The translations under genes were made by a program, and so were the position numbers. Shown piece by piece: positions 4,990 through 57,276 of a stretch of DNA of 64,000 nucleotides. A model generated the notes under the pieces. That model was not told the DNA's origin and searched no databases. It worked only from the letters and a program-made list of their open reading frames with translations. How positions within the stretch are numbered: position 1 is the first letter of the stretch; the number at the start of each line of letters is the position of its first letter. Origin of the DNA: Capitulum mitella (Eukaryota; Arthropoda; Thecostraca; Pollicipedomorpha; Pollicipedidae); contig CP099851.1 of the NCBI GenBank assembly GCA_030062745.1, forward strand, positions 9,488,393 through 9,552,392, written 5' to 3'.

Positions 4990-6203
4990 TTAACCTTATT
5001 CCCGGCAAAGGGGTGCTGAATCCGCCCCCTCGGTTTTTTTGCTTGCCAATTCCAGGGTTTTTTGGCACAGCTTCACGACACCTAGTGGCTTTTCCCAGCT
5101 ATTTTTCTACGTATTATGACAAAATTTAGAAATTATATTTTGCTTAGGGGCAGAGCCAGCCAGCATTTTTGGGAGGCACCTCAGGCTATTTTTGGCCCTG
5201 TTGAGGGTAAAAGGAAAACGACTGTCAAAACTAGCGTTTTTAAGATAGAACTTGAAACGTGATATGGATGTATAACTGAATAGTTAGGCGACGTGTAAAT
5301 ACAATTTTGTTCATTTGGGGTCACTTTACAAGGTCAGGTCAAGGTCAAAAGTCAAAATTTGGCCTTATAGTAGTTATTTCTGCGCCATTTTTTCTGAATA
5401 TTAAGCCCGGCATATCTATGACGTAGAAAGGTACCCTCTACTTTTGTATCAAGTTTCAGATCGATATCAGGTCGAGGACGGAGCTATGGCCTAAAATGTC
5501 AGTGCGCCTACCCCGTATCACAATAGTCGTAAAATGAAATTTTTGAAATAGAGTTAATTCAACTGACTGAAAATGTTTGCAGATAATATTAAATGCACAC
5601 AAGATCATTCCAAGTGGCTCCAAGGTCACCAGGTCATTTAAGGTCAAAGGTCAAGAGTTTATCTGAAGAACATGTGAGCATGACAGTTCCCCGTTTTTGA
5701 TGTCCCTGGCGCCGCCTATGCTAACATTATACAAATATTGTAATACGATTTGTACTTCTTTAGCATAACATGACTAACAGAAGCCAAAAAAGTACTTTTG
5801 CCTTTTTTGTCCATTCAGTTGTTGAAAAACTAATCCTCGTATTTTCGAAATCCTGTGAACGCCTATGAATTTTCTCAAAATTCGAAATGTGTGGACCAAT
5901 GATAAAAGTCCCATCCATAATGTCTCGATTCCTGCCAATTTCATCAAAATCGGTCCGTAAACAACGGAGTTATAAGAAATCCAAAAATATCCCCAGTTCT
6001 TACTTTTCGGCCCCCTTTTTCAACCATTTTCATAATTTTGAAAACTTCTTTAAAAAAAATGTAGTTTACGTCGTGCAAAATCAATTGCCGTTTGTTGCGA
6101 TGAAATCGGATGAGCAATTCTCGAGATCTCGGGGGGGAAGTGAATCAATCCGCCCCTCTGCCGGGAATCGGCCATACCGCTAGCACTCCGGGAATAGGGT
6201 TAA
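4990..6203 (-). mobile_element. TTAA-flanked non-autonomous DNA transposon, family 1, copy A
   Basis: A 1214-bp element with TTAA at both ends (4990-4993 and 6200-6203). The terminal inverted repeats read TTAACCTTATTCCCGG on the left and TTAACCCTATTCCCGG on the right (reverse complement). It is collinear but inverted relative to the copy at 27159-28376. It encodes no protein. TTAA duplication and CCC-type ends are known for the piggyBac superfamily, so a piggyBac-mobilised MITE is the likeliest class; this is inference. It interrupts the satellite at 4480-6630. Clusters of AGGTCA half-sites lie at 5320-5360 and 5620-5655. Confidence 0.8.
5641..5653 (+). promoter_or_regulatory. DR1 nuclear-receptor half-site pair inside TTAA family 1
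   Basis: AGGTCAAAGGTCA is a perfect direct repeat of AGGTCA with one-base spacing. This is the established DR1 motif for RXR/USP and HNF4-type receptors. The same 13 bases occur in the opposite orientation in copy B at 27709-27721. No evidence of function can be read from sequence. Confidence 0.6.
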
Positions 6204-6630
6204 ATGTTGCAGGTTCCCGGTCTCGGGGCCATTTTTGAATGTGATTGGTATGAAGTCCCCTAATGGACGGATGCTTGAGCGTCTCGAGACCAGCTTGAGC
6301 GTCTCGAGACCAGGACCTTGGTTTAGCAACGGCCACCTGGGTCCATTCTGTGACGCCCTTTGAAAGACTCTAGCTTCCCAGGGTCTGGTTTGCTATGGAC
6401 TGTAGACAGTACGAGGCCCTCTCTCGGACGTAAGTCGACGCTCTCTATGAGGTTTGAAGCCCCAGTTCAGCATAGGCCACCTCGATCCATTAATTCTGTG
6501 AGGACCTCTGAAAATTGTATGGTTCTGGCCGCCAGACCAACTTTGACTGCAATCAACACGAGACACTCTGTGCTCACGAGGCCGGGCCCCTGTTCGAACC
6601 CTCTTTCAGGCAGTGGCGGCTCGGGGTCTC
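6204..6630. repeat. Degenerate satellite, about 150-bp units (right part)
   Basis: Continuation of the array at 4480-4989. The landmarks 'gggtccattctgtgac' (about 6340) and 'cgatccattaattctgtgagg' (about 6487) keep the same spacing. A local 23-bp direct duplication ('gcttgagcgtctcgagacca') sits at about 6271-6315. Confidence 0.55.
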
Positions 6631-7734
6631 ACAGACATCTGAGACGCAGCACAGTTGTAGTACCTAACTGTCTTATGTGCGGCTTCTGTGTTGAGTCGTT
6701 TGCGCACAGTTCAAAAACGTACATCTAAGATTTTAAACTATTACGAAATGTAAATATATTTTAATCAACAGTCATCCTACAAACACATTCGTTTCTCCGC
6801 CACTGCTACCAGCTCGGGCATTCGAATATCTTTCGTCGGTGAACCTGACGGTGGTGCGGCGACGGCGGCAGTTAGAAGCAATACGTCTCGCCGAACAGAG
6901 GCTCTGTCAGCTGCGCTGGCGGCCTGCGTGCAGTTTCGCGACGCTCATCCGCTGTATTACATCGGATTCTAGCGTTTGCTGAGGCGGGTGAGCCAGCTTC
7001 CTCTGCGGCCTTGAGCCGCATGTTTGCGGGGCAGCGGGGGTACAGGGCGGCGTCTTTGCGGGTCTGTTTCGTGCTATGTTCATGAATGCGGCAACAAAAT
7101 GAGCACATTATTCCCGTTTAATCATGCATTCAGTTTTATGAACGGTGTTGTGCGTACATCACGTATGTTTCAATTCCCCAGTGCTTGAAATTTTCTGTGA
7201 GACACTTCCTCAGTTTCCTCTAATGATCAGCCACCTCTGGTCTCAAGGTTTGCAGCCAGGTCCAACCCGCGGGGCTTTTAAAAATTGTAAATTCGCTGTC
7301 ACAGACCTTTTCGGTTGTAGCCGTGTACGATACCCTATCGGAAGGAAGCTGAGGCCACTAGCCAAATAAAACTTCAGGGAACACTCACGCTATGTACAGA
7401 CAATCCATCGCCTGCCTAATCACGTTTTCCTTTTCTTTTTTTAGCGTGCTCGTCGCCCTTAGCACCATTTTTTCTTTTGTTCAGTTTCTTACGGGCCCCC
7501 AGCTCCTACATAAGGGGGAGGGGTAGAAGCATAGTTTTTCTCCGGGCCCATTGTGATTGGGAGGCAGCTGCCCTCCGTCCCCCCTTCCGCCCCTTGTCCT
7601 TTGATGTTGTGGAGGCCCCCTTGATGCTGTAGGACGTCCATTTAAAGCTAAAGTACGCATTTTTGCTGTATAGGGGACCGCCGCAAATCACACGATCTCT
7701 TTTTAGGGTATGGGAGGCCACCTGCGCGTCGCCG
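6631..7734. other. Intergenic with one stray satellite unit
   Basis: A single unit related to the 150-bp satellite lies at about 7230-7370 ('gaaggaagctgaggccactagcca'). The rest is unrecognised. A moderately CG-rich stretch at 6840-7050 has no convincing coding content. Confidence 0.4.
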
Positions 7735-8760
7735 TCACCTGGAATAGTTCCATGCTTCTCACGTATGAAGAGGGCTTGGATGATAGGAAGTCTTCTTTTG
7801 TCATTGAGTCGTTTGAGTATCTTGGTGTTCTGCATCGTGGGTCAGTTGTCGGTGGTGTATTTGGAGCATGTGTTGACTGAGTGCTGCTCCCCCGTGCAGA
7901 TGCATCGTCAGGCGACGTGACAGGGTTGTGGTTGTCATATTGCTGTGGTCTCCAGTGAGACGAAGCTGACAGTTTTGGTATGGGCATTGGAAATGATAGA
8001 CTACACTGGTACTCTTCATGGAGTTCGAATCTTGAGAGATGTTTCTCATGATGAGACCACCCATCTTGGCGTTCCGGTCGCAGATGGTCAGGCTAAGCTT
8101 GACGTTTGACTCCGTGCAGTGGACATTGGTAGGGATGAATGATGAATGAATGAATGATGAATGATCTGGCGCAGTGCTCTCTTGTCGACTCTGTAGGATT
8201 GTGGCATTTTATTTTATTTTTTTTTAGTACAGAGGTACATCGTGGTATTGCTTTTGTCTACGGTGGAGGTGTTGATGTTCACACATCTGGTTTTTGACTT
8301 CAAAGTCTCTGTCGGTGTTGGTGTAGCCGGTACTGACGAGAATCCTCTTGCAGCGTTGCAGTTCTCGGTGTGAAGAGGTCCAGTCGGAGCAGTACTTGAG
8401 AGCGATACTACTACGGATGAACGAACGGACGCAACTGGTCCGGTATCGTTGACGGCACTCACTTGCCCATTCATGCATTGGCCGGATCTGTGCGTTTGCG
8501 GTACACCTTGGTTTTCGGTGCTCCGTTTTCTTGTAAAATGCCCAAAGTCCAGGAAGGGAATGCGGCTGTTGATGCTGAGCTCGGTGGTGAAGCGCAGGTA
8601 TGCCCTTATTTCGTAGTTTCTTGAATGTTTGCTGGTGTTCTTTATTCCCAACTTCTACAAAGATGTCGTCCACGTAGCGGCAATAGATGGTCGGTTTGAT
8701 GCTGTTGTCGAGTGGCATGCGGCTCTCCAGGTGGCACATGTTCGTGTTTTATTTCCTTGC
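7735..8760 (-). pseudogene. Penelope-like retroelement relic (reverse transcriptase plus GIY-YIG-type C terminus)
   Basis: Read from high to low coordinate on the minus strand, fragments in different frames follow the order of a Penelope-like element. A reverse transcriptase segment has KPTIYCRYVDDIFVEV (about 8655-8695, with the YVDD catalytic motif). A segment with NSRIPFLDFG lies near 8540-8565 in another frame. The C-terminal block has VVYHFQCPYQNCQ and TTTTLSRRLTMHL (about 7895-8010). The terminal LNDKRRLPIIQALFIRE block lies at about 7745-7810. Frames change at least three times and the reverse transcriptase N terminus is missing, so the element is dead. The expected SYIG part of the GIY-YIG nuclease motif is not intact just before TTTTLSRRL. 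Confidence 0.85.
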
Positions 8761-8916
8761 GTTTCGGATCTACTTGCTCCATCTTCAAGAGTACCGTTGT
8801 TTGTCATGTCTCTGTCTGAATCAAAATACAAACAAAAACGGTCGCATGTAGTCACAGTTAAAACACTATCGATTAAAGATGTTTCAACAGATACACAACT
8901 GACGTGACACATCATT

Positions 8917-8918
<2 letters not shown>

Positions 8919-8966
<48 letters not shown>
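8919..8966. repeat. (AT)n microsatellite
   Basis: A run of 24 AT dinucleotides, followed by an imperfect ATGT extension to about 8980. Confidence 0.95.
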
Positions 8967-8979
<13 letters not shown>

Positions 8980-9479
8980 AGTGTATGTTAGGCCGGGTCA
9001 CGTGACGGGTTTTTGCGAGCGTTTCTAAATTAATCGTGGAATTACCATGCGCTGTATGATTACAAATCTGCACAATTTTTCCTTATTTCTTAAAATCAGA
9101 TTTGGAGGCCGTCGGTGTTTTTATGAGGGCGTTTCTCGGTATTTTTGGTCAAAATCTTAACCCGGCACCGCCTGTCGTGTTTTGTACCCGCGACCGCCTG
9201 GGGAGGGAGTCAAAAAGGGCACCCCTGCTACCTCAGGATCTAATCGTCGGATCTGAACCGGTCTACGACCAGTCGATAGCCCTGAGCTCTGTGACTCGGA
9301 AAATACTGTTAGCCCTGGTCACGTGAGTGATGACGTCACATGTCACGTAAACGCATAACACGACGTAAAAACTGTCATCGGTTTGTACATCATATCATCA
9401 GAATACTGGTCTTCGAGCTTTCAACTGGACGCCTAACGAAAGGTCGCGATTTTTTGCATCAGAAACATGCCAAAATGTC

Positions 9480-9800
9480 CAAAATGCCGGGTCAAGGTAA
9501 GCCTAAGTCAGGTGAAATACTGCGAAAGTTCGATACTTACTCGCTACCGTTTTGATCCACGTAAAAAGGACAGAAATGAAATCTTCTGATGACCAGTTTT
9601 GCATTACCTGGCTTTCATCAGGTAAAGGTCAGTTTAGGTCAGGTCAGATAAAGGTGAATTACTCTTCCTGCCAAAGATCAATAATTACTCGCTGGTATTC
9701 TTAAGTACGTCAAGCACGGAGCTGAAATGATATCTCGTCATAATTAAATCCGCCCTGTCTGCTCTTCATCGGGTCAAGGTGAAGCCAGATCAGGACAGAC
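9480..9800. repeat. Tandem repeat of about 130-150 bp with AGGTCA half-sites
   Basis: Unit starts align at about 9487 ('cgggtcaaggtaagcc'), 9618 ('tcaggtaaaggtcag') and 9768 ('tcgggtcaaggtgaagcc'). Shared internal words include 'aatactNcg', 'actcgct' and 'gaaatgaaatcttctgatga'-like text. AGGTCAGGTCAG-type direct repeats occur at about 9631-9645. The third unit is cut short. Confidence 0.5.
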
Positions 9801-10092
9801 AGCCATTTTTTCTGACTAGGAACAATAATTGCTCTCTGCTGCTACTGAACGATTTTCATTTGTTTTTTTTTCATTTAACACTGCACGACCTTCACCTGTT
9901 TCAGTTGAATGTTGCATTTCATCCCATTTTGACATCTGACTGCGATCAGATGTACAGTGTTGTGCTATGGGACCGCCAGGAGCTGTTCCAAGAGTTCAGG
10001 CTGATCGAGACTGTGTTTGTACATGTCCTACATGGCCTACAGCAGGGTCAGAGGTAGTCGAAGAAACGCCACGTGTACTGTTGCCAACTGGC

Positions 10093-10159
10093 GGAAAGGA
10101 TGTGGGACATGCCATGTCCCACATCACGTCCTTTCCCACAGTAATCGGATTACTGTGGG
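10093..10159. repeat. Two adjacent inverted repeats (hairpins)
   Basis: The first spans 10093-10136: arms of 19 bp (ggaaagga plus tgtgggacatg) pair with the right arm, which carries five extra bases. The second, 10135-10159, has perfect 12-bp arms (cccacagtaatc / gattactgtggg) around a single G. They overlap by two bases and immediately precede the Pao/BEL integrase relic. Confidence 0.8.
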
Positions 10160-12160: not shown

Positions 12161-12161
12161 A

Positions 12162-16299: not shown

Positions 16300-18257
16300 G
16301 TTCGTCAGTCGAGGACGGTATTCCAAATAGCTGGCCGCGGGACGTCTGACGGTTTGGTTAATGTATGTCCATCAGCAAATAATTTCGCAAGAAATTCTGG
16401 GTGCCACGTAAAGCAGTGGTACACGACATCAAATCCCGGCTTAATGGTGACCGCCTTAGGGTCGAATCCGACCACTTCTCTCCTTCCGATTTTTCTTCAT
16501 AACTTCCAAACCGTTTGTAGTATACGCAACCATAATTGGTATACCTTCAGAGTGGTCAATTTGTAACATTTCGACAGCAAAAGAGTTCCAGATGAAGTCA
16601 GGTCACAGAGTTATGACGTGCGGCACAGAGCCATGCTAGCCGGTCGGATTTGACCTTCCTGTAACATGGCAGGGGACCGAATTAGGATCAACTGGGGTGT
16701 TTTGAGATGAGACGGACTGGCCAAGTCTTTCAAATGGTGGTCGAATTTTTCTGGTAGGGCTGTTGGTTCCGGAGATACCAAGGGGTGGCCGAGCCCCCCT
16801 TCTAAGCGGTCGTGGGTACTGCAATTCTCCAGACGGTGCCGGGTTAAGGATACAGATACGATTGTCAAACAATGCAAACGCACCAGAAGCATGCAAGTTC
16901 TTACCTGCTTTGCCGAGAACTTTACATTTCTGTCACCTGGAAGCGTGAGGTGTGGATTCTGCTGCGCCGGCTCTCCAACGGTGAGTGCACTGCTCGGTGG
17001 CCAGCAGCATTCGTCTACCTCTTCGGTAACAAAACAGCTGGTGCAGATGATCATCACCCCATGGTAGGATGGGATGCAATCAACCACTGCAAATTGGGCC
17101 TCTGTTCCTGTTTGTTCCGTTGCTCCTGTGGAAATCGTCAAATATCAACACAGGCCGTCTCCTATCATTTCTGTTCTCTCACCCACAAATTTGGTACTGC
17201 GGACGGGGGGGGGGGATATTCCTGAATCTAGTGCATCCTAATTATGTGACAATATGACGGATTCCAAACGTTCAGATAATTATTTATTGCACTTCCGTGG
17301 AGTGCTACACACATAGCGCGGTTATTCTGAGCTCGGCGCTTGCAACAAGAAGGCGGAAGTATGGTAGAGCATACCGTCAATCAGCAGGCGAATCGGAACA
17401 AGACAAAACAGTATCACACCAAACATAGCTACATAACTACAACTAGACTCTCCTGCGGACTGCTTTTTTTGGCTGTAGACATTACTGCCTGTCAAGAAAT
17501 GCAGTAGTCACACACTGCTTGTTCAAGAACTTTTAGTATACACCAGTACCTACCACGCATGACCACCGCGCAAAAGAAAGTCATTAAGGCGTCAAAAGTG
17601 CACACATTCACACCTAAAACGTGGAATCCAGAGGAAGTCGTTTATCCGATAAATGTGACCTTGCACCATTAATCGCAGTACAGAGGCGGAACGGAGACAA
17701 ATGAGTCATTGTATGACAAACGCAGTCGTTCTGACAGGGGCGTTGGAAGCAGGAAGCGGGGGGGGGACAGGGGGTCGTTGCCCCATGTTTTGAAATTTTG
17801 CATTGACCCTATGGGCGTTGACTGGTAAGAGTTGACCCAAAATGCCTCTGCCTGCCCCCGCGCTCCCCCCCCCCCGCCCATCTCGTTAACTGTGGACTTC
17901 CCTCGCACTTGCATTTTGATGCTATACTTTGCATTGATACGACAATATTCCTCCCAGACTACTCAGACACCTGCCTCGTTCCAGTGCTTCTGAAATCCAC
18001 CGGGTACCTGAAAATCTTCTTCTTCTCGAAATACTCTATGAGCATTTTGACTTTCCCAGAGTTAACCATGAGCACGTTTCGAATCAAGCCGACCTACCAG
18101 TTGATTTCAACGCCATCGTCCGGGGGGTCGGGGCCATGAGTCACTTACTATGCAACTTTTTGATCTGGCGATATAAACTTCTGTCAGCTTGGTGAGGCTC
18201 ATCAGAATGGTCTTTTTAAGTTGTTCATCAAACAAATCAAAAAGAGCCCCATAAAGT
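16300..18257. other. Intergenic with one unrecognised long open frame
   Basis: The longest frame is 16611-17141 on the minus strand (176 codons). It shows no domain I recognise, and an overlapping + strand frame (16872-17225) is similarly uninformative. A GGTCGAATCC word near 16451-16460 resembles a polymerase III B box, but no matching A box or cloverleaf was found. Poly-G and poly-C runs occur at about 17207 and 17870. Confidence 0.3.
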
Positions 18258-19443
18258 TTTTCCGAGATTGCGAGAGAACGAACAACCTCAGTGCCACGAG
18301 CAAAATTTTGTGTACATTTTGATTTACGATTTTTACGTCTTGTGTCAAAGCTCTGATTTCAGGTCGAGTCAGTCGTCTAACCTAGGTCAGGTCAAGTACA
18401 CCAGTGTCTAAAAACGTTTGGCGCCCTGTAACTTTGTCGGAAAACAAAATATCGCAACAAAACTTTCAGAGAATGGAGTTCTTGATAGACCCAACAAATG
18501 TGCTATCTTAGATTTTTGAGAACTTTGAGATTTTTGAAAAAAGGTCATTGATCTAGGGTCAATCCCATTTTCAAAACGTCTTTATTTTTTTGGAAATTGA
18601 AGGATTTTTAGAAACATTTTGGGTATGAGATGATGCAGACAACCGATGGCCGTTATTGGACAAAGTATCAATGACTTCCAACCATTGACCTGAGGTCAGG
18701 TCACCAATAGCCATTATGAACCAAAATGCCTCACGGTCAAAATCGATGATAGGCGACTGGGAACGGACAGAAAATAACAGAATTGACTCTCACAGTTGCA
18801 AATAATACCACGAAGTTCAAAAAGTTCAAAAATTGCGTATTTTCGAAACAAAAAGGCTTCCGTAAATCATGACCCCCAATTGTGTGGATTGCTTTGTTTT
18901 TTATATAGATTTTAGTAGATACGCTTTTTAAAAAATTAAGTACGAGAGACCATTGAAAGAACCACTAGCATCAAGGCAGATCATTTGGGAAGCACTTGCC
19001 GCCAAAATAAAGGCAAAAATTAGTTCTCGTTAATTGTATCCTGCGTTCGGCGCCGGCGCCCGTCGTGCAGTGGCGCGCATATTGTTGAGTCTTTAACTCA
19101 ATGTTTTCACGTAATTATTAAGCAAGTGAGAGAAGTTAGACGTGTGTCGGCATCTGCAAACTTTTTATCCATCCGTTGGTGCCCTTACGCAGGTTTTATT
19201 GACCACAGCCTTTGAGACGTTGGCTGTTTCTCGATTTCATGTAGTCGGCTATGAGAAAACATGCAAAGGCGAAAATGGCTTACATATTACCCAAAAATAA
19301 AATGGAGCCAGTTTCGAGCTCTTCGGATCACGAGCTTTCCAGCGATATGTTTATTTTTGTCTTGCCACCAAACGTTCGCATGTTAGAACCGTTCCCCCCA
19401 CTCGGGCGTGCATGGCGCTGACTGCCAGTTGAGCACGGGTTAA
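18258..19443 (+). mobile_element. TTAA-type element, family 2, copy A (left end missing)
   Basis: Collinear with 56108-57276: 'gagattgcgagag', 'gtgtacattttg', 'cctaggtcaggtca', 'gcgccctgtaactt', 'caatgacttccaaccattgacctgaggtcagg', then 'ggagccagtttcgagctct' near the right end. It ends with 'gccagttgagcacgggTTAA' at 19443, matching the family 2 terminus. The left TTAA end is absent or too diverged to see. It is noncoding and rich in AGGTCA half-sites (18362-18395, 18685-18705). Confidence 0.7.
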
Positions 19444-20637: not shown

Positions 20638-21199
20638 GTCTGTACTGTGTGTATACCTATTCCAGCAGACTATGTACTTGTCTGCTTAGTGATATGATGC
20701 AGGCACTTGGTTGCCTGGAACAGCATTGTAGTGTACACGTTAAAGTGCGTTAAAATCAGTCTTAATCACTATAAAAAGGAAAATGTTTCCTGTATATGTT
20801 GCCGATTGAAGTTTTCTTAGGTGGTACTGTTTTTTTTTCTTGCTAGGTAGTGGTAACTGTTTTTGGTGATGCTCGAGCACTTAAGAGATATAAAACTTCG
20901 CATATGCAAGAGAGTGTTACGACACATCATCTCTAGCAACCTGACGTGCACAGAATCTTACAGCAAACTGAGTGTCGCCATTTTTTACAAGATCAACGAG
21001 GTAGAAAATACAGTAATGAGGAGCAACATCGCCAACAACATGAAAACTCCGTAGTATACCAATGTAGTTTACCAAGGTTAGTATACCAACGTAGTTTAAA
21101 ACGTAGTAGAATGTAGCAGAAAACTGCTGCCAGAACGTAGAAGTTCAAGATAGAGCTTAAAACGATACATGAGTCTACAGGTAAATAGTTGGGCAGCCG
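20638..21199. other. Intergenic, nothing recognisable
   Basis: A weak local direct repeat ('agtataccaacgtagttta') at about 21050-21100. Otherwise nothing was recognised. Confidence 0.35.
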
Positions 21200-22115
21200 A
21201 ACAAAAATATTTTGTTGACTGTAACCCAATTCCCTTGGTCAGGCCAAAGTCAAAGGTCAAAATTTCTTTTCATGCACAATTTTTTGGCGATGTTTATCAT
21301 TATAAGAAAGAATACTAATGAGCTATGACAAAGTTCGCTTCTTGTGTTTTTGCAAGTTCCAGGTGGATATCAGGTCAGGTCACGAGGCCATGACTCAACA
21401 TGTTCCCATTTTTCGGCGCCGAATGACCCTGCAGTCGGTGCGCCCCTAAGCCCCAATAACCAACCAACCAACCACATATTCTCACGCATGCTCTATATCA
21501 CAACGATCATACACTACAGAGCATTGACGAATGCAACAAATCCAGATGATTAAAATAATTTTCAAACACTATGGAATTAATACCCAATGCCATTTTGTCA
21601 CTTTCAGGCCATTTGAGATCATATGAGATAGAAAATTAGAAGCTGACTTGATGAAAATGCGACCAGGACTTTTTTCATCCATTGGCACCATCTATGCCGA
21701 CTTTATGCAAACGATGTTTTACGGTTTGTACTTCTGAGGCGCAAAATGGCCAGAACAGGCTGAAAAACCAACTTTGACGTTAAGCTGGCTTTTGAAACAA
21801 ATATTTCTCCTATTTCCCACGCCCATTGAAGAACCTATGGGCTCTTCCAAAATTGCAAACAAATATATAGAAAAGAAAAGGCCCACCAATGCTCCTTTAA
21901 TTAATACTAGTTGCATACCATCGGCTCATGAACATCGGGGTTCCAACAAGCAAAAAGACCCCCTTCTAACTTTTCTGCCACCCCTCTCCGCCGATTGCAG
22001 ATTTTCAAATGTCTTTAAATACAGATGTAGTCTACGTCATGGCGAATCGATCGCCGTTTGTTTTTTTGCGATGAGATCGAACGGCTAGTTTTCGAGATGT
22101 CGGAGTGAGGCACAC
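21200..22115 (-). mobile_element. Diverged relic of TTAA family 1
   Basis: Scattered collinear matches to copy A: 'tcaaaggtcaaaat', 'ccaggtggatatcaggtcaggtca', 'tttgtacttcNgaggc', 'gtagtctacgtcatggcgaatcgatcgccgtttgt', and 'gcgatgagatcgaacggctagttttcgagatNtc'. Terminal TTAA and inverted repeats are not preserved, and part of the middle is replaced. Confidence 0.5.
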
Positions 22116-22943
22116 CGCGTCCCATGGATACGGAAATGTGTCCTAGAGTTATGGGTATGGGTAGCGGTGGGCTTGGAACTAAATTATTGTTTACTTCGAA
22201 TATATCTAATTTAAATATTTAATAACAAAAAGTGTAAAATTATTAAGCCAAAATCAGTCTTAGGATTAAACGGGCCGTAAAGAGGTGAATTACATTGAAT
22301 CGTATGAAGAACATGCTTGAGATATCTGAAGTATTGAAATAATAATACTGATGTTTTATGGACTAGAATATTTGTGTGGGAATTAAAATATTTCAAGTAT
22401 TTCCAGTAAAACAGATCAAACATTTTAAGTAGTACAAGTAAATAGCACAGCCGACGGACAGTAGTCGTGTCGTCAATACGTTCACGAATTTAAAGATGCA
22501 CCATTCATCCAGTTTCACCTTTTGGGCGAAAGCAAGTGCCCGTAACTGTAATCCCGGATGTACGTGGCTGGAGTCCGGGATGTGCGGTGAACAGTATTCC
22601 TGTACAGTGCTGCATGTTAAGTTTGCACGGGTCCAGTCCCGTCGATTTGCGCGCCGTTTGTGTTTGCTCTAAGCATGAAGCTGGCTTAAGGTGATGGAGC
22701 CGGGCCGCTCGTTCAGGCCGTTACCTCAATGATAAACACACTTCTGGGCGCAGCTTACAGAGTTAATTAGAATTATGTGAGCTACTTTATCTCCAAATGG
22801 CATAATCCAATGTACTGTGTATGCTAGCGTCAGTCGCCTGGACGAGCGCCTGCTTCCCGCGGGCCCCATTCAATCTTGGGTGGAGAAAGGTCAGACGGTC
22901 ACGGAGCTGTCGTGGCCGTCCCCGCGGACAAACGACCTCAGGA

Positions 22944-27158: not shown

Positions 27159-28376
27159 TTAACCCTATTCCCGGAGGGCTAGACGGTATGGCCGATTCCC
27201 GGCAGGGGGGGCGGATTCCGCCCCCCCCTGAGATCTCGAGAACTACTTATCCGATTTCATCGCAACAAACGGCAATCGATTTGCCGTGACGTGAACTACA
27301 TTTTGATAAAAGGAAATTTTCAAAATTTTGAAATTTGTGGATATAGGGGGGCAAAAATGTTAAAATGGGGGGTACTTTTTGACTTCTTATAACTCCGTTG
27401 TTTATGGACCGATTTCGATGAAACTGGCATCAATCGAGAGATTATGGATAGGGCTTTTACCATGGCTATGCAAATTTGAAATTTTGAGAAAATTCATGGG
27501 CGTTCACAGGGTTTTAAAAATAGGGGGATTAGTTTTCTAATAACGGAATGAACAAAAGAGGCCAAAACACTTTTTTAGCTTCTGCTAGTCATGTTATGCT
27601 AAAGAAGTACAAATCGCATTACAATGTTTGTATAATGTTAGCATAGGCGGTGCCAGGGACATAAAAAAGGGGAAACTGTCATGGTCACACGTTCTTCAGA
27701 TCAACTTGTGACCTTTGACCTTAAATGACCTCCAGTGACCTTGGGGTCACTTGGAATGATGTCGTGTGCATTCAATATTATCTGTAAACGTTTTTAATCG
27801 ATTAAATTCACTCTATTCCAAAAAATTCATTTTTTGGCTTTTGCGATATAGGGTACGTGCACTGACATTTTAGGTCATAGCTCCGTGACCCGACCTGATA
27901 TCAAGCTGAAACTTGGTACACAAGTAGAAGGCACCCTTCTACGTCACATATATTCCGGGTTTGGCATTTAAAAAAACGGCGCCGAAATTATTGCGAAAAA
28001 ACAAATTTTGACTTTTGACCTCGACCTGACCTTGTAAAGTGATCTGAGATAAACAAAATTACATATGCACATTGCCCAACTATTTAGCTATATATTCATA
28101 TAAAGTTTTAAGTTTTATCTTAAAAAGTCTGTTTTTGGCAGACATTTTCCTTTTACCCTCAACATGGCCAAAAATGACCTGAGGTGCCCCCCAAAAACGT
28201 TGCCTGGCTCCGCCCCTGAGCAAAATAGAATTTCGAAATTTTGTCACGGCGCGTAGAAGGAATAGCTAGGAAAAGTCACCAAGTTTCGTGAAGCTGCGTT
28301 AAAAAGCCCGGAATTGGCAAGCAAAAAACCCGAGGGGGGGGCGGATTCCGCCCCCCCCTGCCGGGAATAGGGTTAA
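27159..28376 (+). mobile_element. TTAA-flanked non-autonomous DNA transposon, family 1, copy B
   Basis: The best-preserved copy, 1218 bp including TTAA at both ends (27159-27162 and 28373-28376). The ends are TTAACCCTATTCCCGG and its exact reverse complement. Just inside each end is a G-tract/C-tract palindrome centred on CGGATTCCG (27205-27227 and 28334-28358). The left end carries a 29-bp extra segment before the shared ATTCCCGGCAGGGGG. It has no open frame of transposase length, so mobilisation would need a protein from elsewhere. It contains a DR1 (27709-27721) and several TGACCT clusters (27709-27752, 28012-28035). Confidence 0.88.
27709..27721 (-). promoter_or_regulatory. DR1 nuclear-receptor half-site pair inside TTAA family 1
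   Basis: TGACCTTTGACCT is the reverse complement of AGGTCAAAGGTCA. Further half-sites follow at 27726, 27736 and 27745. Confidence 0.6.
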
Positions 28377-28749: not shown

Positions 28750-30109
28750 GTTAAATGTCATTGTCAGTTTTTTTATGGCGCGGCTAGTGACAGTATACTG
28801 TGTTGTCGCAGGTACAGTTATGATCTATGAGAGCAATGAATATGTTATCTTTACTACATCAGCGCAAAAAATGCCCTTGGACCAATTTCTTTTCGCATTT
28901 TGGGTTAATATCAGGTCAGTGATTTCAGCTGACCTTGGAAAAGTCAATGGCCTTTAAAATCACGATGTCTTGTCAAGCATATGCTGGAACTATTTCGCAT
29001 CAACAGCTGACCCCAGCTCTCTTCCGTCTGCCACAAAGGAACAAAACGCAGCACATGTTGAGAAAACCTGCTTAGGAAACCTCGATAACGATGCCATGAC
29101 TCGTTGACCCGACATGATCTGGTATTATTGGTCGCTGGAAAAGATGCGGGAAAGATGCAAGATTAGGTTTCGCAAATTACAATTCTCTACGCGGACCGTC
29201 CGCCATTGGCCTCAGAGAAAACCTCATGAGGGGGAGGAGGCGGAGGGGGGGGGGGGGCAGCAATCCCGTCTCGCGTCCCGCGAGGGCATGGTTATAAAGG
29301 AGGGGCGTCATAAAGACGGCAACATTTTATCATTGCGCTTTTTTAGTTTTCATGGTCTTAATCGATACATTGGTGCTGCGATACACCCGATAGTGTGGAG
29401 CATGCGTACCAATGTTCTGAAAAGAGTTCAGCTTACACCACGTATGGTCTCTTACAGCGCTGATTGGTCGTGGAGTTTTGCATGGGCGTCTGACGTTTTT
29501 TCGACGTGTAGAGGGTAGTGACATACCCCAGCAAGAGGCAATATAGTTCTGGACAACAAAAGCCAATGAATTGCATTTTCAGCATCATCTTAATGGCATG
29601 GGTACATTTTGTCAACAAGAGTAGACCGCACTATCACAAGTGAGGTAATATCACGTCATTTACTGTACCTAGACGCGCTTTCACTCTTTTCTTGAGCTTT
29701 CCTTTTCAAGTTAAATTTCGTGGGGGTAGGGATTTATTCGACCCTTTCTGATATATCGGAAACTAAACTTTCCTGTTTTCCCCTGAGATAGCTGAGATGA
29801 ATACTTATGACCTAATCTACAATTATTTGTGTTTTAACCATCGCCAATATTCGCTTTTTGGTCGCCTTCTAGTGTGCACGGTGGTCATGTATTACTTTTC
29901 GAGAATATTTAAGCCATGTTCGCCCTATTTATGTCTTCTCATAGCAGTTTGCATAGACCCGAGAAACGTCTTGGACCTCAAGGACAGTGCTTTGTTAAGA
30001 CTAACTGAACGTACCAACAGACAGATAAAAGTCCGTAGATGCTGATACATAATTAATTTCTGACATGTTAAATAATGACGCGGAAATTTCGGGTTTAAGG
30101 TACAGCGAT
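28750..30109. other. Intergenic, no gene recognised
   Basis: A half-site-rich patch near 28910-28945 and a poly-G run near 29247. Short open frames without family resemblance. Confidence 0.35.
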
Positions 30110-30840
30110 TCTCTGCGACACAGAGCCACGGGCGCGGGCACCGAACGAGGGATGAAATGGGTCAGTAGTTTTTTAATATCCTCTGTTTTTTAGCTTTTAA
30201 TTTCCCCTATTTTGGTGAAAGAGGCCTTATCAGTCTGCATTTCTTGGGACTGGTAGTTCGTGTCATGGTATGTCATGTTCAATTTTTGAAAAGATCCAGG
30301 TACTACTAATCTACTTCATCGGTAGGTCTTTATTCGTACAAACCACTTCGTTGGCAAACTGTGCAATGTTTGTGGATTTGTTGAGCTTACTGGTGTAATT
30401 AGCAGCTTTGAGAGTCAGTTCTGCCATTTCCCATCTGTTCCAAGTCTGTTCCGTGCCACTGCCAATTTTGACGGCGGTGCATTGTCGTTCATAACAGTTA
30501 ATGATGGCCTAACTTCAGGTCAATGGTTGGAAGTCAGTGATACTTTGCCAAATGACGACCATTGAAAGTCGCCATTACCTCACACCCAAATCATCGGAAT
30601 TCCGCCACTTTCGGCAAAAAACGACAACATGCGTCGAAAATAGGCTTCACCTTAGGCCATTGAGACGAAAGTTGCCGAAAAATGAGATAGTAAAGTTGAT
30701 GCGCATGCCAAAATCTCTAATCCAAGAAAGCTTTGCTTTGATACCCTGTCTTTCTGAAAACATTTGAAATTGTTTTGACCCTGGTTAACCTGAATTAGTC
30801 TAAGTCAAACACCTGACCCGAAACTCTGGCACAAAGTGAA
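30110..30840 (-). mobile_element. Relic of TTAA family 2, copy D
   Basis: Reverse-orientation matches to copy B: 'tcagttctgccatttNcc', 'aattttgacggNggtgcatt', 'acagttaNt', 'cttcaggtcaatggttggaagtcagtgatactttg', 'aggcttNaccttaggNcattga' and 'gccgaaaaatNgagatag'. Ends are not preserved. Confidence 0.55.
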
Positions 30841-31641
30841 GGAAGCGCCAGGAAAAACGTACGTCAAATTTCGCGGCGCTACGACTGTTAGTTCTCTCGC
30901 AACGTCTGAAAAACCTCAGGGAACTACCAACACCCCCTCCCCCAGTCGGGTGCAGGATAATGTTGTATGTAATGATTCAGTTAATAAATGTGCGAGATTA
31001 TTACACAGATTTTTCCCGCGAGACCTCTATGTACGCACGTCGCTCTTGGATCGAAATCGAGGACATGGTGGCAAAACGGCCAGGAATGACGGCCGTACCG
31101 CAGGAGCTGTTCGAGACATCCCAAACTCCCACAAAAAAGGAAAGCGCACTTGCCAATGTACCGCGAAATTTTGTTTTACACATCATTTAAAAAGAAAAAG
31201 ATATGACCAAAGACCACGAACTTTGTACATGCTCCTCATAAATGTCGGAATATAAACACAAAGGCGGAAAATTGCTCTCTTGTTAAGTTCCTCTACGGTG
31301 GCTTACGGTTTTCGTCCTACGGACGGCTAAATGTAGTCCGTGCAGGTGTAGCAGATGCAGAGTACTGTAGTGACTATGAGGTATTGAAGAACTCGGTAAA
31401 CACCGAGCACTGTTCGGGTGGCATGCGAAAGCATGCCCTTGCATTTCGTCATTCAAGGTCTGATGGTGCTCCATGCATTTTGGTGTGAAACGATATTATT
31501 CATCAACGCAGGGACTGCGCAGTCTGCACTGGGCCATCCCACAGAAATATGAATCCCAATGAATTTGAAACAACAAAATGCTATTTTTCATGTAATCCGC
31601 AGAAGGCCTCTTAAACAAAGCGCATTTTGTACTTATTATTT
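30841..31641. other. Intergenic with an unrecognised open frame
   Basis: The 139-codon frame at 30836-31255 and the 76-codon frame at 30960-31190 overlap. Neither matches a family I know. Confidence 0.3.
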
Positions 31642-39696: not shown

Positions 39697-40083
39697 TTTT
39701 CAGTTGTCAGAAAACTAATCCTTCTATTTTTGAAACGCTGTGAACGCCCATGAATTTTTTTCAAAATTTCAGATTTATGCACCCATAGTAAAAGCCCTAT
39801 CCATAATCTCTCGATTCATGCTAGTTTCATCGAAATCGGTCGATAAAAAACGGAGTTATAAGAAGTCCAAAAATATCCCCCATTTTGACATTTTTGCCCC
39901 CCGTATCCACAGATTTGAAAATTTCGAAAATTTCTTTTTATAAAAATGTAGTTCACGTCACGGCAAATCGATTGCCGTTTGTTGCGATGAAATCGGATGT
40001 GTAGTTCTCGAGATCTCAAGGGGGCCCAATCCCCCCCTGCCGGAAATCGACCATACCGTCTAGCCCTCCGGGAATAGGGTTAA
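39697..40083 (-). mobile_element. TTAA family 1, copy C, truncated
   Basis: Closely matches 5820-6203, starting near 'aaaactaatcct' and ending 'ccctccgggaatagggTTAA' at 40083. The other two thirds of the element, including the DR1 region, is missing. Confidence 0.75.
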
Positions 40084-42429: not shown

Positions 42430-43102
42430 GCAGGTTGATGAACGACAATGCATTACAATGAAAACGGCTTAGTCATTGCCGGACTACCATGCCGCCGTTG
42501 GTGACATGTTGATGCAATGATGATTTCCCTGACCGTTTCTTACAAGCACTGGTACTGGGCAGGCACGTCTCGAGAAGACAGAACGATCTTGAGTATTCGA
42601 TGACAAACGCTGTCTCGTAGCTGCTTTTGGGTTGCGTGACGCATACAGCTCGCCATGGAGCAGTAGATAAAAAAGAACGGCCGCACATCGGCGGTTCTTT
42701 AAGGGAGAAAGGACAAGGGATACCGTCATAACATTTTACATAGGTCCATTTCCGAGTCGCTCAGTACAGGGCAGTGGGTTACTGGTGCCTGGTGCCGGCA
42801 TGTGCACAACATGTAAGGAGCGGTAAGTGAATATAGCGCCAGGTGTCCAGCGCGGATGTTTCTGTGTTTTAGTACGCTATGCTAGCATGCTTGATCGATA
42901 CGTTCCATTTTTAGTTCTCTCTGTAGTTGGAGTTCTCGGACGGCCCGCCGAATAAGTGGCCCTTTTCAGAGCCGCCAACCCCGCCGCGGCATGTGAGCCA
43001 TCAGGCAACCTGTAATTTCTCTATGCTGTGTTTAGTTTCTGAATGCCACTATTCTCCACTTTATGTGTATTGCAGGTAAAGTCGTTTGCGCATATTATGG
43101 AT

Positions 43103-43469: not shown

Positions 43470-44798
43470 TTAACACGCACACTGGATGGGGGGTCTTTTT
43501 GCGCCCCCTGTTTTTCTTGAATATCTCGAGAACGGATCGGAGCTGGTTGCTGCTACTTTGTGACAGTTATGGCAATTGAATAACTCGTCGAGTGGCGCAG
43601 AAAAATAGAAAATCGGCAGGAACTTTTTGAAGCTTCAAGCATTTGAAGTCAGGCAAACAAAACGAAAAAGACGGTTATCGCTGACAAATGGGAACTTTGT
43701 GAAAGAACCAGCGCTCTTCCTAAGGTTACCGTTTGAACACAATCACGCGACGTCATTTGGGTGCAAGTGATGGATGTACCAAGACCAAAGTCAGGGTCAA
43801 CTAAGGGTCAAGGTCGCCAAAGGACAAGGTCAAACAGTTTGTGACCTGATCCAGATTTGCTTTGCGACATGTCGGTTTGTGTGGAATATGCATTCAAAAA
43901 CCCTAATAAAAACACATGCGCGCACACTGATACGCTTACATATACCAGGATCAGTGAAGACCAAGGTCATTTAAGATAAAGGTCAAATATTTTGTCACCT
44001 GGCACAGATTTGGTTTTCGTCATGTCAATTTGTATGAGATATACATTCAGAGGCCCTAATAAAAACACGTTTGCGCACATGGATACGCTTACATATATGC
44101 CAGGGTCATTTCAGGTCAATGGCATCAAAGGTTAAGGGCAACTATTTTTTGACCTGGTCCAGATTTACTTTGTAATATGTCAATTTGTATGGAATATGCA
44201 TTCAAAGACCCTTCTAAAACACGTCTGGCACATTGATATTCACATGTATATACATATCTGCATACGCCTACGTACATAAATATAAACGCCGGAAGTGACC
44301 AAATGTATCGATGTTGGCTACTTCCGCTGAAAATACGCTAAAAGAGTACGTGTTGCGCCCTTATTTACTCTCGAGCTATTCCGTGTCGTTCGAAATCTGA
44401 TCTCCAAAAGATGAAAAAATGGCGCCATAGGTCAATGACCTGAGCATGACCACGACCCGAAATCCTCAGTCAAGACGCCAAATGGATGGAAGTTGTCGTA
44501 TTCCACGTTTTAACGCCAAAACAAACACTCTTTTCCCGTTTCGTTCGAAAAGTTGTATGGAATGGCCCGTACGGGCCGAGAAAGTGTCAAAAGTTGACAT
44601 TTTCCACCCCATTTAACCTTGAACATGTTGATCTAGGGTCATGCAAATTGCACTCAATGTAAATCGTTATAGCCCCACTTTGTCCACAAAATTTCATGTT
44701 TCTAGCTCTTTCCGTTGCCGAGATCGGAGGGGGCACTTTTTGACCCCCCTCCATCCAGTGCGCGTTAGCACGAAACCCCCTTCCACTGTGCGTGTTAA
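43470..44798. mobile_element. TTAA-flanked non-autonomous element, family 3
   Basis: A 1329-bp element with TTAA at 43470-43473 and 44795-44798. The termini are TTAACACGCACACTGGATGG and, reverse-complemented from the right, TTAACACGCACAGTGGAAGG. The right end also carries a second internal copy ('ccatccagtgcgcgtta') about 30 bp inside. It is noncoding. It contains a half-site-rich tandem array and a second half-site patch near 44430-44450. Family ends differ from families 1 and 2 past TTAAC. Confidence 0.8.
43785..44265. repeat. Tandem triplication of about 153 bp inside TTAA family 3
   Basis: The landmark 'tttgNNacctggNccagattt' occurs at about 43838, 43991 and 44145. Each copy also has 'aatttgtatNgaatatgcattcaaagaccctaataaaaacac' and 'gatacgcttacatatatNccagg'. 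Each begins with a run of GGTCA/AGGTCA half-sites. Confidence 0.8.
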
Positions 44799-53131: not shown

Positions 53132-53137
53132 TTTATT
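53132..53137 (-). terminator. Candidate poly(A) signal
   Basis: AATAAA on the minus strand, 31 nt beyond the stop codon of the candidate exon at 53168-53353. Confidence 0.45.
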
Positions 53138-53167
53138 GTATTTGAGAGAGAAAAAAAAATCAATTGG

Positions 53168-53353
53168 TCACAGGCCCGCTGCCCCCACAAATGCAACGTA
53201 GCGCCCTCCCACACTCGTGAGCATCACGCCCTCCTTCTCCGAGCCCAGCCCAAACCAACTCTCCCGATCCGCTCGATCCCTCCCGCTCTTCCAGGCGCCG
53301 ACCAATCCCTGGATTTCCACGGCCGTCTCATTCCCCAACTGATCAATGAACAT
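53168..53353 (-). CDS. Candidate 3' terminal exon or small protein, unknown function
   Basis: ATG at 53353 with A at -3 begins a 61-residue frame (MFIDQLGNETAVEIQGLVG..., ending GGRYVAFVGAAGL) with balanced, protein-like composition and no low complexity. A canonical poly(A) signal follows within about 35 nt, as expected for a real 3' end. The frame is open eight more codons upstream of the ATG to a stop. Acceptor-like CAG sites lie just upstream, so it could instead be the last exon of a gene extending beyond 53400. I do not recognise the family. Confidence 0.4.
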   Translation of the reverse strand: MFIDQLGNETAVEIQGLVGAWKSGRDRADRESWFGLGSEKEGVMLTSVGGRYVAFVGAAGL

Positions 53354-53639
53354 TTTCAAACATACCGCTGTCTTTGATGCTAGCTATAGGTGTAGCTTGG
53401 TAACCTCGTCATTTCAGTTTACACCTCCTTCCTGCGCAACAAGTGACATCATCTGCAAAATTCAACACACATTTACTATTGGTGATCTCGATCGTACCAA
53501 CATTTCTCTTCGTCTAATAAGTTCTGTTTACCAAGAAGTTTTTCTTTTATTCGTCAGACAGACAGAGGTTCCAGTTTCAACACCCATATTCCTGACATCA
53601 AACACTGACCACTAACAGCGCTTGTACTTCACTACGTCG
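53354..53639. other. Possible intron or intergenic sequence
   Basis: No recognised feature. It would be intronic if the candidate terminal exon is real. Confidence 0.25.
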
Positions 53640-53985
53640 TGAGCGGCACGGGGTCCACCACATGTTAAGCTGGATAGAGAACACGGTCCACTAAAGCTAG
53701 AAACTGTTCGCCTTATTAAGTGCCTCCAAACGGAAATGATAAAACAGTATGGTGCAACATCATATGCAACCAATCAGGAGGCGTTTTGCAATGTGAATAA
53801 GCCGGAACGGCTAGGCTTTAACCAATGAACGGGCAAACGGGCAAATTTTCAGAACTGGCTAATGTAAGGCTGATGCAAGAGGTCAGCAGTTTTGGTTGAG
53901 ATGCGCTTTTTTAGGTTAGAAGAAGGAAGCATCGTTTCGCATTGGGATGCAAAACGTCAAACGGCACAGCGGAACGAATGATCTA
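53640..53985 (-). repeat. Dispersed repeat P, copy B
   Basis: Reverse-orientation counterpart of 36478-36900. The CCAAT-like words are kept, while the TATA position has become acttaataagg. Confidence 0.65.
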
Positions 53986-55044
53986 CTAAAGCTCTCACGT
54001 AAGCCCTAAGTTACTAATGAGTCCTGGATCCATATTGTGCATCTGGATCTCATATCGGATCTCTCCAGATCTTCGCACGTGTCTGGACTCAACAGCACCC
54101 GACGTTTGACCTGTAACCGTGATTAATTGAATTCTACAGATGTTCGGCTCGTGCCACGTGACACGTGTCACACGCCATGAATCGCTTCGAAACCTGCACC
54201 AACAATCTGTCCGCCGAGTCGGCACACTGCATGGTGCCACTTGTGTCGCGATCGGCTGGCGAGTTCGGGCGCTAGATGCTCGAAAACTTGGACACGCGCA
54301 CACTTACAAACAGTTCGATCTGACCTTTTCTGAGCGACCGCCATGTGTGAAAGCTCAGTTCAATAAAAGCGAGCAAACCTCTTCTGATTTTAAATATTTA
54401 TTGGTAATGACCAAATATATCAGAACTCAGAACTGTAATACATCATAACACATAAAATAAACATGGAATGTCAAACATCAAGAACTGCACCATGTGTTGG
54501 TCACATCTAACAAAATGACCTCAACAGAGATGCTATATCTTTACTCATGTTTATCCTGCGCTAGTGTACTGCTAGTTTCATCATGATTACGTACTGTTTT
54601 GCTATGTAACACAAAAGAGAGTGAAGATAATCAATGAAAAGAAAAATATAAATAGGCTCCGGCAAGTCTTCCACGTAATATCATGCATTGATATAAGAGA
54701 GGTAAAGACTGCTGGCTCGAAAATGGCATTACTCACTAGAAGGGAAACATTGAAAAGATATCAGGCATTCTTCTGGAGGCTTCGAAATTAAAACATTTTC
54801 TTTGGGCACTGCATCCAATGAGCTGTGATACATGAATTTTGTCCCTCTGAAAACATATTCCGTGGCAAGGGCAAGTGAAATAATTACGGAATACATCAAA
54901 CAGTGGAGTATATTACATTGCTTTATGCAGCCGCTTTTGAACGATGTGAAGTTACGTGAGGTACAGTTGCGAGGTAATGATGTCCTCAGTTTACTGTTGT
55001 ACCTGCGCAATATTTCATGATAAGCTATCACGATTCGTTCACAT
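53986..55044. other. Intergenic, nothing recognisable
   Basis: A cluster of CACGTG/ACACGTGT words at about 54156-54170. No recognised gene. Confidence 0.35.
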
Positions 55045-55190
55045 CATGACTGGAAATTTCCGAAAATTATTGGGGCGTCCACATAGGATTTCACATTTTT
55101 TCTTTCCAACCATTATCTTAGGCCTAATGTTGAAATCCCTCAGTATCGGGGGTTCGAACCCCTCCCCTTCGCCGAGGTCGCTATCCATGG
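55045..55190 (+). repeat. Dispersed repeat S, copy B
   Basis: See 41571-41719. This copy contains GGGGGTTCGAACCCC, a good match to a polymerase III B box/T-arm, which is eroded in copy A. No full tRNA can be folded around it. Confidence 0.5.
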
Positions 55191-55304
55191 ATGACATCAT
55201 CCTTTTCATATTTAAATATGTATTCCACCCATGATATTAAGCCAACGGCTGTGGCACAATCAGATTTGTACCAACTTCGGCGTAGGAAGGTTGATTTCTG
55301 TCAA

Positions 55305-55830
55305 TGTGGGGGACAAGCCGAGGGTCCGAAAACCTACCCTCCTCTCAAATGGGGGTTTCTCAACGGATTTAGCCCTTTTCATTTTGATCAACGAAAATTT
55401 ACAAGTTTTTTGTTCTTATCTGTCAAATAAAAAAATGCATATATCCCCATACATGGTATATAGATAGCAGATAGAAAGACGGTAGTTACATCGCTTTAAA
55501 CCTTATTCTGTACTTTCTGTCTGCCTCTTATCTATTGCGGCCGTTCTTTTCGTTATTATTGCCCATTTTCCTTTAAACAGCAGAAAATTTGGGGGGGGCG
55601 ACAAGCTAACATTGGAAGTGCCCAAACCAGTACTGGAGAGGTCAGGGCCCTCTCGAAGGAATATAGATCGATATCCTTGTTTCGGCGGACAAGAAACCAA
55701 TACAGAGGGAATATGGTATCGTTTTTTGAAATATCGTATGCCGTAATGTCGTAATGGGCCTTCTTTAAGCGGTGGAAACGACGATTCATCCACAGTTTTT
55801 AGATGCCTTGATATCTGTCTGTCTGAGGAC
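55305..55830 (-). repeat. Dispersed repeat R1, copy B
   Basis: Inverted counterpart of 2935-3330 across 55305-55700. Its extension 55765-55830 ('cggtggaaacgacgattcat', 'ttagatgccttgatat') also occurs at 58171-58240. Confidence 0.6.
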
Positions 55831-56062
55831 AATTACGTTTTCAGACACCTAATGCAAAGAACAATTCGTACTGAGTTGGCAGTGAAAATGCTTTCGCGGG
55901 TTTTTGCTGTGTTGCCGTGGTAACAGCGCTACCTTGCCGTCGACGTCACGACCTATCAACAACTTACCTCGCCGACCACTGAGGTAACTCGGTGGGCCTA
56001 TCGAGGTTACCTGGGTGACGTCCCAGGTTAGCTTATGAACGCCGTTTGCCAGAATGTGCCAA

Positions 56063-57276
56063 TTAACCTGTCCCCGACTCGGAGGGGCAGTTGACCGCCC
56101 CCTCCTGAGGTTTTTCTGAAATTGCGAGAGGACGAGCAAGCACAGAGCCACGAAACTTCGTGTACATTTTGCTTCATTGATTTTACATCTTGTGTCAAAA
56201 TTTTGACCCCAGGTCAGGTCAGGTGCCTGACCTAGGTCAGGTCAAACAGACCTATGTCCAAAAAAGTTTAGCGCCCTGCAACTTCTTTGGAAAACAAGAT
56301 ATCTCAACCATACTTTCAGGGGTTAATGATCGTGATAGATGCAACAAATCTGCTATCTCAGATTTTTCGGAATTTCCCGGGTCATTGACCTAAGGTCAAG
56401 CCATTTTTAACACATGTCGTTTTTTCGGAAATTGACGGGATATTTCGTAACATTTTTAGTGTGGAATGAAGCAGACATCTAGTTACCGTCATTGGGCAAA
56501 GTATCAATGACTTCTAGCCATTGGCCTGAGGTCAGGTCACGAATAACTGTAGTGAGCCAAAATGTACCACCGTCAAAATCGCGATGAATTACTCAGAATG
56601 CGTAGAAAATGGCAGAAATGGCTTGCACAGGCGTAAGTAATACCAGGAACCTCAAAAAGTTTTAAAAATTACATATTTTGGAAACAAACAGGCTCTCGCG
56701 AATAAAGCTCAGCCAATTGTGTAGAATGGTAACTAATGACTTTTTCCAAAATTTAAGCATGGAGAACCATTACAAGAACCAGTACGATCAATAACATTTA
56801 CATGGATAGGCTTCTTGGCGAAAATGAAGGAACGCTAAAATAAGTTCCCGTCAATTTGTTACTGCATACGGCTGCGGCGCACGCCGACAGCCGTTGCCAA
56901 AACTGCCGGGTCTTTAACTCGACGTTTCGGCGTATATATTCAACAGATCTGAGAAATTAGACATGTATCGACATTTGCGAACCTTTACTTGTGCCCTGGT
57001 GCCTTTACCTATGTGTTATTAGTCACAACCCTTGAGATTCAGACCATTTCTCGGTCTCATGCAGCTGGCTATGAGAAAACATATATGGGGCGTAAATTGT
57101 TTACATATTATCTAAAACTAAAAATGAGACCAGTTTCGAGCTCTACTCATCACAAGCTCTACAACAGTGTGCTTATTTTTATTGTGCGACCAACCGTTCG
57201 TGAATTAGAGGGGGCTTACTACCCCCCCCCCCAGTCGCACTTGATCGTAACTGATCGAGGGTCGTGCGCGGGTTAA
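56063..57276 (+). mobile_element. TTAA-flanked non-autonomous element, family 2, copy B
   Basis: A 1214-bp element with TTAA at 56063-56066 and 57273-57276. The left end is TTAACCTGTCCCCGACTCGG. The right end reads TTAACCCGCGCACGAC when reverse-complemented, and copy C gives the fuller TTAACCCGCGCCCGACTGGC, confirming an inverted repeat. It is noncoding. A dense half-site array at 56211-56244 includes the palindrome CCTGACCTAGGTCAGG. More half-sites lie at 56380-56396 and 56523-56540. Confidence 0.8.

Follow-up and report, generated by a model that had tools for sequence, protein, structure and literature searches.

Putative nuclear-receptor half-site arrays in three abundant non-coding piggyBac-type transposon families of the barnacle Capitulum mitella

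A 64,000-bp stretch of the Capitulum mitella genome (contig CP099851.1, positions 9,488,393 to 9,552,392, hereafter the window) holds copies of three families of TTAA-bounded elements with clusters of AGGTCA and its complement TGACCT, the half-site of nuclear receptors. Why would elements that code for nothing carry such sites, and what, if anything, reads them? In this work, we find real arrays, already there in the consensus sequences, in three abundant families of non-coding piggyBac-type elements (families 1 to 3) with parallel ends and different interiors. The reading that accounts best for them is that they are putative receptor-binding arrays exploited by the elements themselves, and we give it about an even chance of being right.

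We aligned 24, 25 and 17 copies of families 1, 2 and 3 to derive a consensus for each, after removing seven locus identifiers that duplicated another row; the family 2 rows include a diverged copy from the window. Some rows that are probably not independent were kept: the flanks of L002 are nearly those of the window copy at 4990, and those of L092 and L095 are identical, each pair probably representing one insertion in a duplicated segment. Counted as exact AGGTCA or TGACCT, the three consensus sequences contain 9, 11 and 19 half-sites, compared to means of 0.47, 0.47 and 0.57 in 2,000 dinucleotide shuffles per consensus, none of which was as high as the observed value in any family. This corresponds to 7.4, 9.0 and 14.3 half-sites per kb, 15 to 29 times the chance level of 0.49. 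Among the 1,479 hexamers seen, AGGTCA ranks first for joint enrichment in all three families, followed by CCCCCC, which reflects G/C runs near the element ends, and half-sites number 87 over the entire window, where shuffles give 29.8. The original prediction had reported half-site clusters in all three families; they prove stronger than it stated, and family 3 was understated because its window copy holds 8 half-sites where the consensus holds 19. Both of the refuting outcomes that it named were checked, and neither applies: half-sites are present in every consensus, and their density is far from that of shuffled sequence.

Families 1 to 3 are non-autonomous piggyBac-type transposons, as they combine a TTAA target, inverted ends, an asymmetric end layout and a lack of coding capacity. 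TTAA flanks both ends in 40 of 65 distinct copies (ends extrapolated from BLAST alignments, so that the misses include alignment offsets and decay). The 12 bases after TTAA form terminal inverted repeats with zero or one mismatch in three copies from the window that belong to families 1 and 3; family 2 failed this 12-base scan, and its consensus ends have TTAACCCG in common and are imperfect further in. At the right end, the left-end motif is repeated 26, 27 and 28 bp further in (families 1, 2 and 3, respectively), and G-run/C-run hairpins lie, by eye, beside both ends. The longest stop-to-stop frames of the consensus sequences are 69, 97 and 101 amino acids, in agreement with the predicted absence of coding capacity. 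Kolobok and Sola3 are other TTAA transposons, and the piggyBac-like asymmetry, as read from the ends, argues against either identity.

Mobility is recorded in empty sites. When the flanks of insertions were joined, with the TTAA between them written in by script, eight matched elsewhere across the junction, and all five that were inspected cross the 4-bp target without a gap there (L011, L039 and L040, which are self or partial matches, lie outside these five). The empty relative of L049 itself has TTAA, and the window contains an unoccupied relative of a family 3 insertion site (Table 1).

Across 16 contigs and 477,042,490 bases, whole-genome searches produced 11,428, 8,522 and 3,973 first-look candidates for families 1, 2 and 3, of which the best 40 each were scored (41, 42 and 42 matches returned); given these candidate numbers, the families look large. 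Taken by itself, the 20-base left end of family 1 has 5,357 genome occurrences, compared to 0 for the reversed control. By BLAST, families 1 to 3 account for 8,660 of the 64,000 bp of the window and for a similar share (5,641 of 39,534 bp) of the flanks of 30 piggyBac transposase loci, although both samples are possibly biased. Four of the boundary pairs first proposed (4990-6203, 27159-28376, 56063-57276 and 43470-44798) have a TTAA precisely at each end. The fifth, 18258-19443, does not delimit a TTAA-bounded copy: its homology begins at about 18247, equivalent to consensus position 36-37, so that the left end of roughly 36 bp is lost and the sole remaining TTAA is on the right, at 19440-19443. 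Beyond these copies, the window has two additional pieces each of families 1 and 2.

Table 1. Elements of families 1 to 3 and their half-site arrays in the window (DR, direct repeat, followed by the number of bases between half-sites)
Feature	Position	Strand	Details
Family 1 copy	4990..6203	+	TTAA at both boundaries; 7 AGGTCA half-sites
Family 1 array 1	5331..5347	+	Overlapping pair and DR0
Family 1 array 2	5623..5653	+	DR4, DR4, DR1 in consensus
Family 1 copy	27159..28376	-	TTAA at both ends; 8 half-sites; 95% identity to consensus
DR4-DR4-DR1 array, family 1 copy	27709..27741	-	
Family 1 right-end fragment	39699..40083	+	Consensus 829-1218
Diverged family 1 relative	21114..22119	+	Split into two pieces
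Family 2 copy	56063..57276	+	TTAA at both ends; 9 half-sites
Family 2 array 1	56211..56244	+	Overlapping direct repeats, everted pair without spacer
Family 2 GGGTCATTGACCTAAGGTCA	56379..56398	+	Inverted pair with 1-bp spacer, plus everted pair
Diverged family 2 copy	18247..19443	+	73-76% identity; 6 half-sites; left ~36 bp gone
Family 2 right-half copy	58234..58921	+	
Diverged family 2 relative	29891..30959	-	
Family 3 copy	43470..44798	+	TTAA at both ends; 8 half-sites versus 19 in consensus
Family 3 tandem unit	43826..44238	+	~153 bp, 2.7 copies, half-site clusters
Family 3 perfect inverted pair AGGTCA-A-TGACCT	44429..44441	+	
Unoccupied relative of family 3 insertion site	42827..42954	-	Continuous across target

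The families had been described as unrelated. This is rejected for families 1 and 2, whose left ends align over roughly 140-160 bp (nhmmer E values of 4.5e-9 and 8.5e-8); their homology halts close to the start of the family 2 array, with the alignment reaching consensus position 138 and the first half-site at 139. Family 3 has the same layout, with an inverted end, a G-run/C-run hairpin and a shifted right end, and its nhmmer matches to the others are weak and lie mostly over the arrays (best E value 5.4e-5 against family 2, 1.4e-4 against family 1), beyond which homology is not shown. No array in the three families begins less than 139 bp from the left end, and each family has its own arrangement. 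Family 1 has a DR7, an overlapping pair and a DR0, followed by DR4, DR4 and DR1; family 2 has everted pairs with a spacer of 0 or 1, overlapping pairs and an inverted pair GGGTCA-T-TGACCT; and each 153-bp unit of family 3 is mostly an alternation of DR4 and DR0, to which an inverted pair AGGTCA-A-TGACCT is added. We take this last pair (44429..44441) and the GGGTCATTGACCTAAGGTCA of family 2 (56379..56398) to be like ecdysone response elements. Since layouts differ and interiors match so weakly, separate acquisition can be argued, and the arrays probably arose more than once.

Half-site pairs of these kinds are dispersed throughout the genome. There are 32,896 matches to DR4 (AGGTCA-N4-AGGTCA) compared to 499 for the reversed control, 22,529 to DR0-3 compared to 679, and 41,562 to DR5-12 compared to 1,525; inverted pairs with spacers of 0-3 occur 3,648 times (154 for reversed palindromes) and everted pairs with the same spacers 19,440 times (140 for the reversed pattern). 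The diversity of spacers was assessed on the plus-strand matches listed for DR4 to DR12, a non-random sample from about the first 3 Mb of contig 1. Among these, DR4 is the most diverse, with at least 39 different spacers in 79 matches, 23 of the 39 being two or more changes away from any spacer in families 1 and 3, while DR5 to DR12 have 3 to 15 different spacers each. A 1-bp spacer is found, by a count made by eye, in 39 of 50 distinct inverted sites among the matches listed. The listed pairs thus show a preferred spacing and orientation, as in nuclear-receptor response elements, although the everted pairs with a spacer of 0-1 in family 2 are atypical.

A similar preference emerges away from families 1 to 3. 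In 122,249 bp gathered independently of half-sites, with these families masked, 10 bp is the commonest distance between GGTCA pairs, at 7 pairs, where shuffles give 0.35 and none of five control pentamers forms a single pair, and 36 GGTCA pairs fall within 30 bp of each other compared to roughly 7 in shuffles. Because 10-bp pairs persist after masking, the pattern seems to extend to other repeats; at locus L117, three half-sites follow one another at a 10-bp step.

Could the arrays have grown without any protein reading them? Slippage may have extended AGGTC or AGGTCA tandems in ancestral copies that were then amplified, an origin that would explain the overlapping AGGTCAGGTCA runs found in families 1 and 2, has a parallel in an AGGTC-unit minisatellite at C1:111,603-111,683 that yields overlapping AGGTCA runs, and fits the 153-bp tandem unit that multiplies the sites of family 3 as well as the inconsistent conservation of half-sites among families described below. 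It sits poorly with the variety of 4-bp spacers and the occurrence of both orientations, which are unlike products of slippage, and with the first rank of AGGTCA in the joint hexamer comparison, and we regard it as rather unlikely.

Receptors that might recognise the arrays are encoded in the same genome. The receptor DNA-binding domain (DBD) has 49 exon matches, and 13 of the 15 that were fetched have a readable frame. By comparison with the PDB, one DBD has NR5A2/SF-1 as its nearest match, which places it in the FTZ-F1 class, of which a pair is present, and another is closest to RXR/USP; the remaining ones are putatively assigned, by their sequences, to HR3, HR39, HR78, HR38, E75 and HNF4. 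EcR itself was not picked out among the 15 fetched matches. Five pairs of similar DBDs are on different contigs (L100/L101, L102/L103, L104/L105, L106/L107 and L111/L112), as expected from the old genome duplication reported for barnacles (PMC11331182). In yeast, Drosophila EcR-USP is reported to respond to an inverted repeat (IR) without spacer (IR0), DR1, DR4 and others, and one beetle EcR-USP best to DR4 (PMC5494300).

A precedent for a function is mouse SINE B1 (a short interspersed nuclear element), whose receptor half-site is reported to be bound by NR5A2, an FTZ-F1-class receptor, in early embryos (PMC12848575). As in SINE B1, the half-sites here are borne by a transposon, in a genome that encodes the FTZ-F1-class pair; there, however, the site is a TCAAGGCCA motif and not an array, and its binding was measured, whereas here binding is predicted from sequence. 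From this analogy we infer that receptors bind the arrays and that the elements benefit through open chromatin in the germ line or embryo. One or more host receptors that operate in germ-line or early embryonic cells (candidates would be EcR-USP, FTZ-F1, HR39, HR78 or similar) would bind the arrays, or would have done so while the elements spread, and would keep the elements accessible to a transposase made elsewhere, which would cut and move them. Array-bearing elements would then spread more, and the dispersal of receptor sites in the host genome would be a by-product. Of the initial proposal that a piggyBac-type system disperses receptor-binding arrays, mobility (occupied and empty sites, asymmetric ends) and the genome-wide dispersal of half-site pairs hold up, and the arrays are putatively receptor-binding. 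A more far-reaching version, in which several non-coding DNA transposon families independently evolved putative receptor-site arrays to gain access to open chromatin of the germ line or embryo, with about one-seventh of the sampled genome becoming potential binding DNA for hormone receptors as a result, be it a decoy or a response network, we advance as tentative and would sooner doubt than accept.

The transposase could itself be the reader. The arrays may be bound by a transposase belonging to these elements that has yet to be seen, or by some other protein that they encode, in the manner of internal repeats in other DNA transposons, with the match to receptor sites a coincidence; they do lie inside the elements and in all three consensus sequences. 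We looked for transposase-bearing relatives with the piggyBac transposase model PF13843, which has 118 genome matches, and fetched 30 of these loci with their flanks, finding both ends in 17. All but one of the 30 belong to two families, A and B, and the remaining one, L071, is merely distantly similar to A. The ends of A and B (TTAACCCATTAACGCCCA and about TTAACCC[AT]TTAGTGCCCA) differ from those of families 1 to 3, which none of the 17 elements with both ends found carries; this would leave room for a dedicated transposase elsewhere. The same 17 elements have 24 half-sites in 46,454 bp, or 0.52 per kb compared to 0.49 by chance, and arrays are thus rejected as a general piggyBac property. 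That the measured A and B elements lack arrays, that the arrays of families 1 to 3 start so far from the left end and differ in arrangement from family to family, and that 10-bp pairing also occurs outside these families all make a transposase-binding role unlikely. As for the loci themselves, nine of the 30 have some match to families 1 to 3, and at six (L055, L061, L068, L070, L075 and L082) the transposase-bearing elements adjoin or sit inside broken copies of these families, which gives relative ages. L071 (C2:27091099-27092190) has an open piggyBac transposase frame of 593 amino acids and may be a domesticated gene in single copy or represent a third family.

Conservation bears on whether the arrays still matter. 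In family 1, half-site positions are more conserved than the rest (0.978 compared to 0.937), a value reached by 0.28% of circular shifts. Across seven diverged relatives, 16 of 52 half-sites were kept compared to 597 of 3,553 other CpG-free 6-mers. Strong conservation of half-sites is unsupported overall, with the signal confined to family 1. This lack of consistency fits arrays that, if they had a role, served the spread of the elements and had none for the host later on. That the elements were taken up by the host as a hormone-response network we consider very improbable: the many DR4 (32,896) and inverted (3,648) sites would suit such a network, for which Alu provides precedents (PMC1785376, PMC3252374), yet half-sites are not generally conserved, and the family 3 copy in the window has kept 8 where the consensus has 19.

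Several observations weigh against receptor binding as the reason for the arrays. Half-site conservation is not different from the rest in family 2 or family 3, where 14% and 72% of circular shifts, respectively, reach the observed value, and the excess among diverged relatives becomes a weak difference (10 of 40 compared to 464 of 2,850) without L121 and L122, which had been fetched for their half-sites. The predominant family 2 layout, everted pairs with a spacer of 0-1, is no classical dimer site, and overlapping AGGTCAGGTCA presumably cannot seat two receptors simultaneously. The genome-wide pair totals are mostly the amplification of few sequences or families, and in the masked sequence two of the five control pentamers form 21 and 16 close pairs, above shuffled GGTCA. 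Finally, an autonomous partner of families 1 to 3 was not found among the 30 of 118 PF13843 loci that were fetched.

Families 1 to 3 resemble non-autonomous elements of the piggyBac superfamily, akin to miniature inverted-repeat transposable elements, in their TTAA ends and absence of coding capacity, and families 1 and 2 share the start TTAACCC. The internal repeats of piggyBac are reported at 31 bp and 3 bp from its two ends (PMC1783651), an offset of 28 bp that compares to 26-28 bp here. They differ from piggyBac-type elements in that family 3 starts with TTAACAC, their ends are unlike those of families A and B of this genome, G-run/C-run hairpins lie by both ends (by eye), and half-site arrays occupy the interior. 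Human Alu, which carries DR2 retinoic acid response elements and HNF4 sites, is likewise a high-copy non-coding transposon that multiplies nuclear-receptor sites; it is a primate retrotransposon, whose DR2 is reported to have arisen largely through CpG deamination within AluS copies (PMC1785376, PMC3252374), whereas families 1 to 3 are DNA transposons with arrays already in the consensus. Searches of the open-access literature, which leaves subscription papers outside, turned up the vertebrate Alu and mouse cases and no invertebrate TTAA element with receptor arrays. If receptors do bind, DR4, IR1 and everted sites on transposons would be open to the moulting-hormone receptors of an arthropod in tens of thousands of places, and DNA transposons of an invertebrate would join Alu and SINE B1 as vehicles by which receptor sites spread. 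The array-less piggyBac families of the same genome offer a clean test of why non-coding transposons gain transcription-factor sites.

The abundance of families 1 to 3 contrasts with the low repeat figures of barnacle genome papers, where repeats are reported as 3.2% in Pollicipes, with a note that a barnacle repeat library is lacking (PMC8917513), and as 3.53% in Capitulum (PMC8416341); the families may simply have gone unlisted in earlier accounts. Two loci, L115 (C1:25300-28100) and L116 (C1:136300-139000), have 2.37 kb in common at 94% identity, which holds a right-truncated family 3 copy and a left flank with another DR4 pair, and is either a segmental copy or family 3 within a larger repeat. 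More degenerate half-site clusters lie outside families 1 to 3 at window positions 1-700 and 9440-9760, where element boundaries were not found. A second common module, approximately GTTTCRTCGAAATCRG plus a tail of looser conservation, is found in family 1 (consensus position 953; window positions 39824 on the plus and 27424 on the minus strand) and in the array-bearing repeat of L117 (L117:1642). We take it to resemble a motif from non-coding transposons of many invertebrates, and, by eye, families 2 and 3 seem to have looser GTTTCRTCGAAATCRG-like forms close to their ends.

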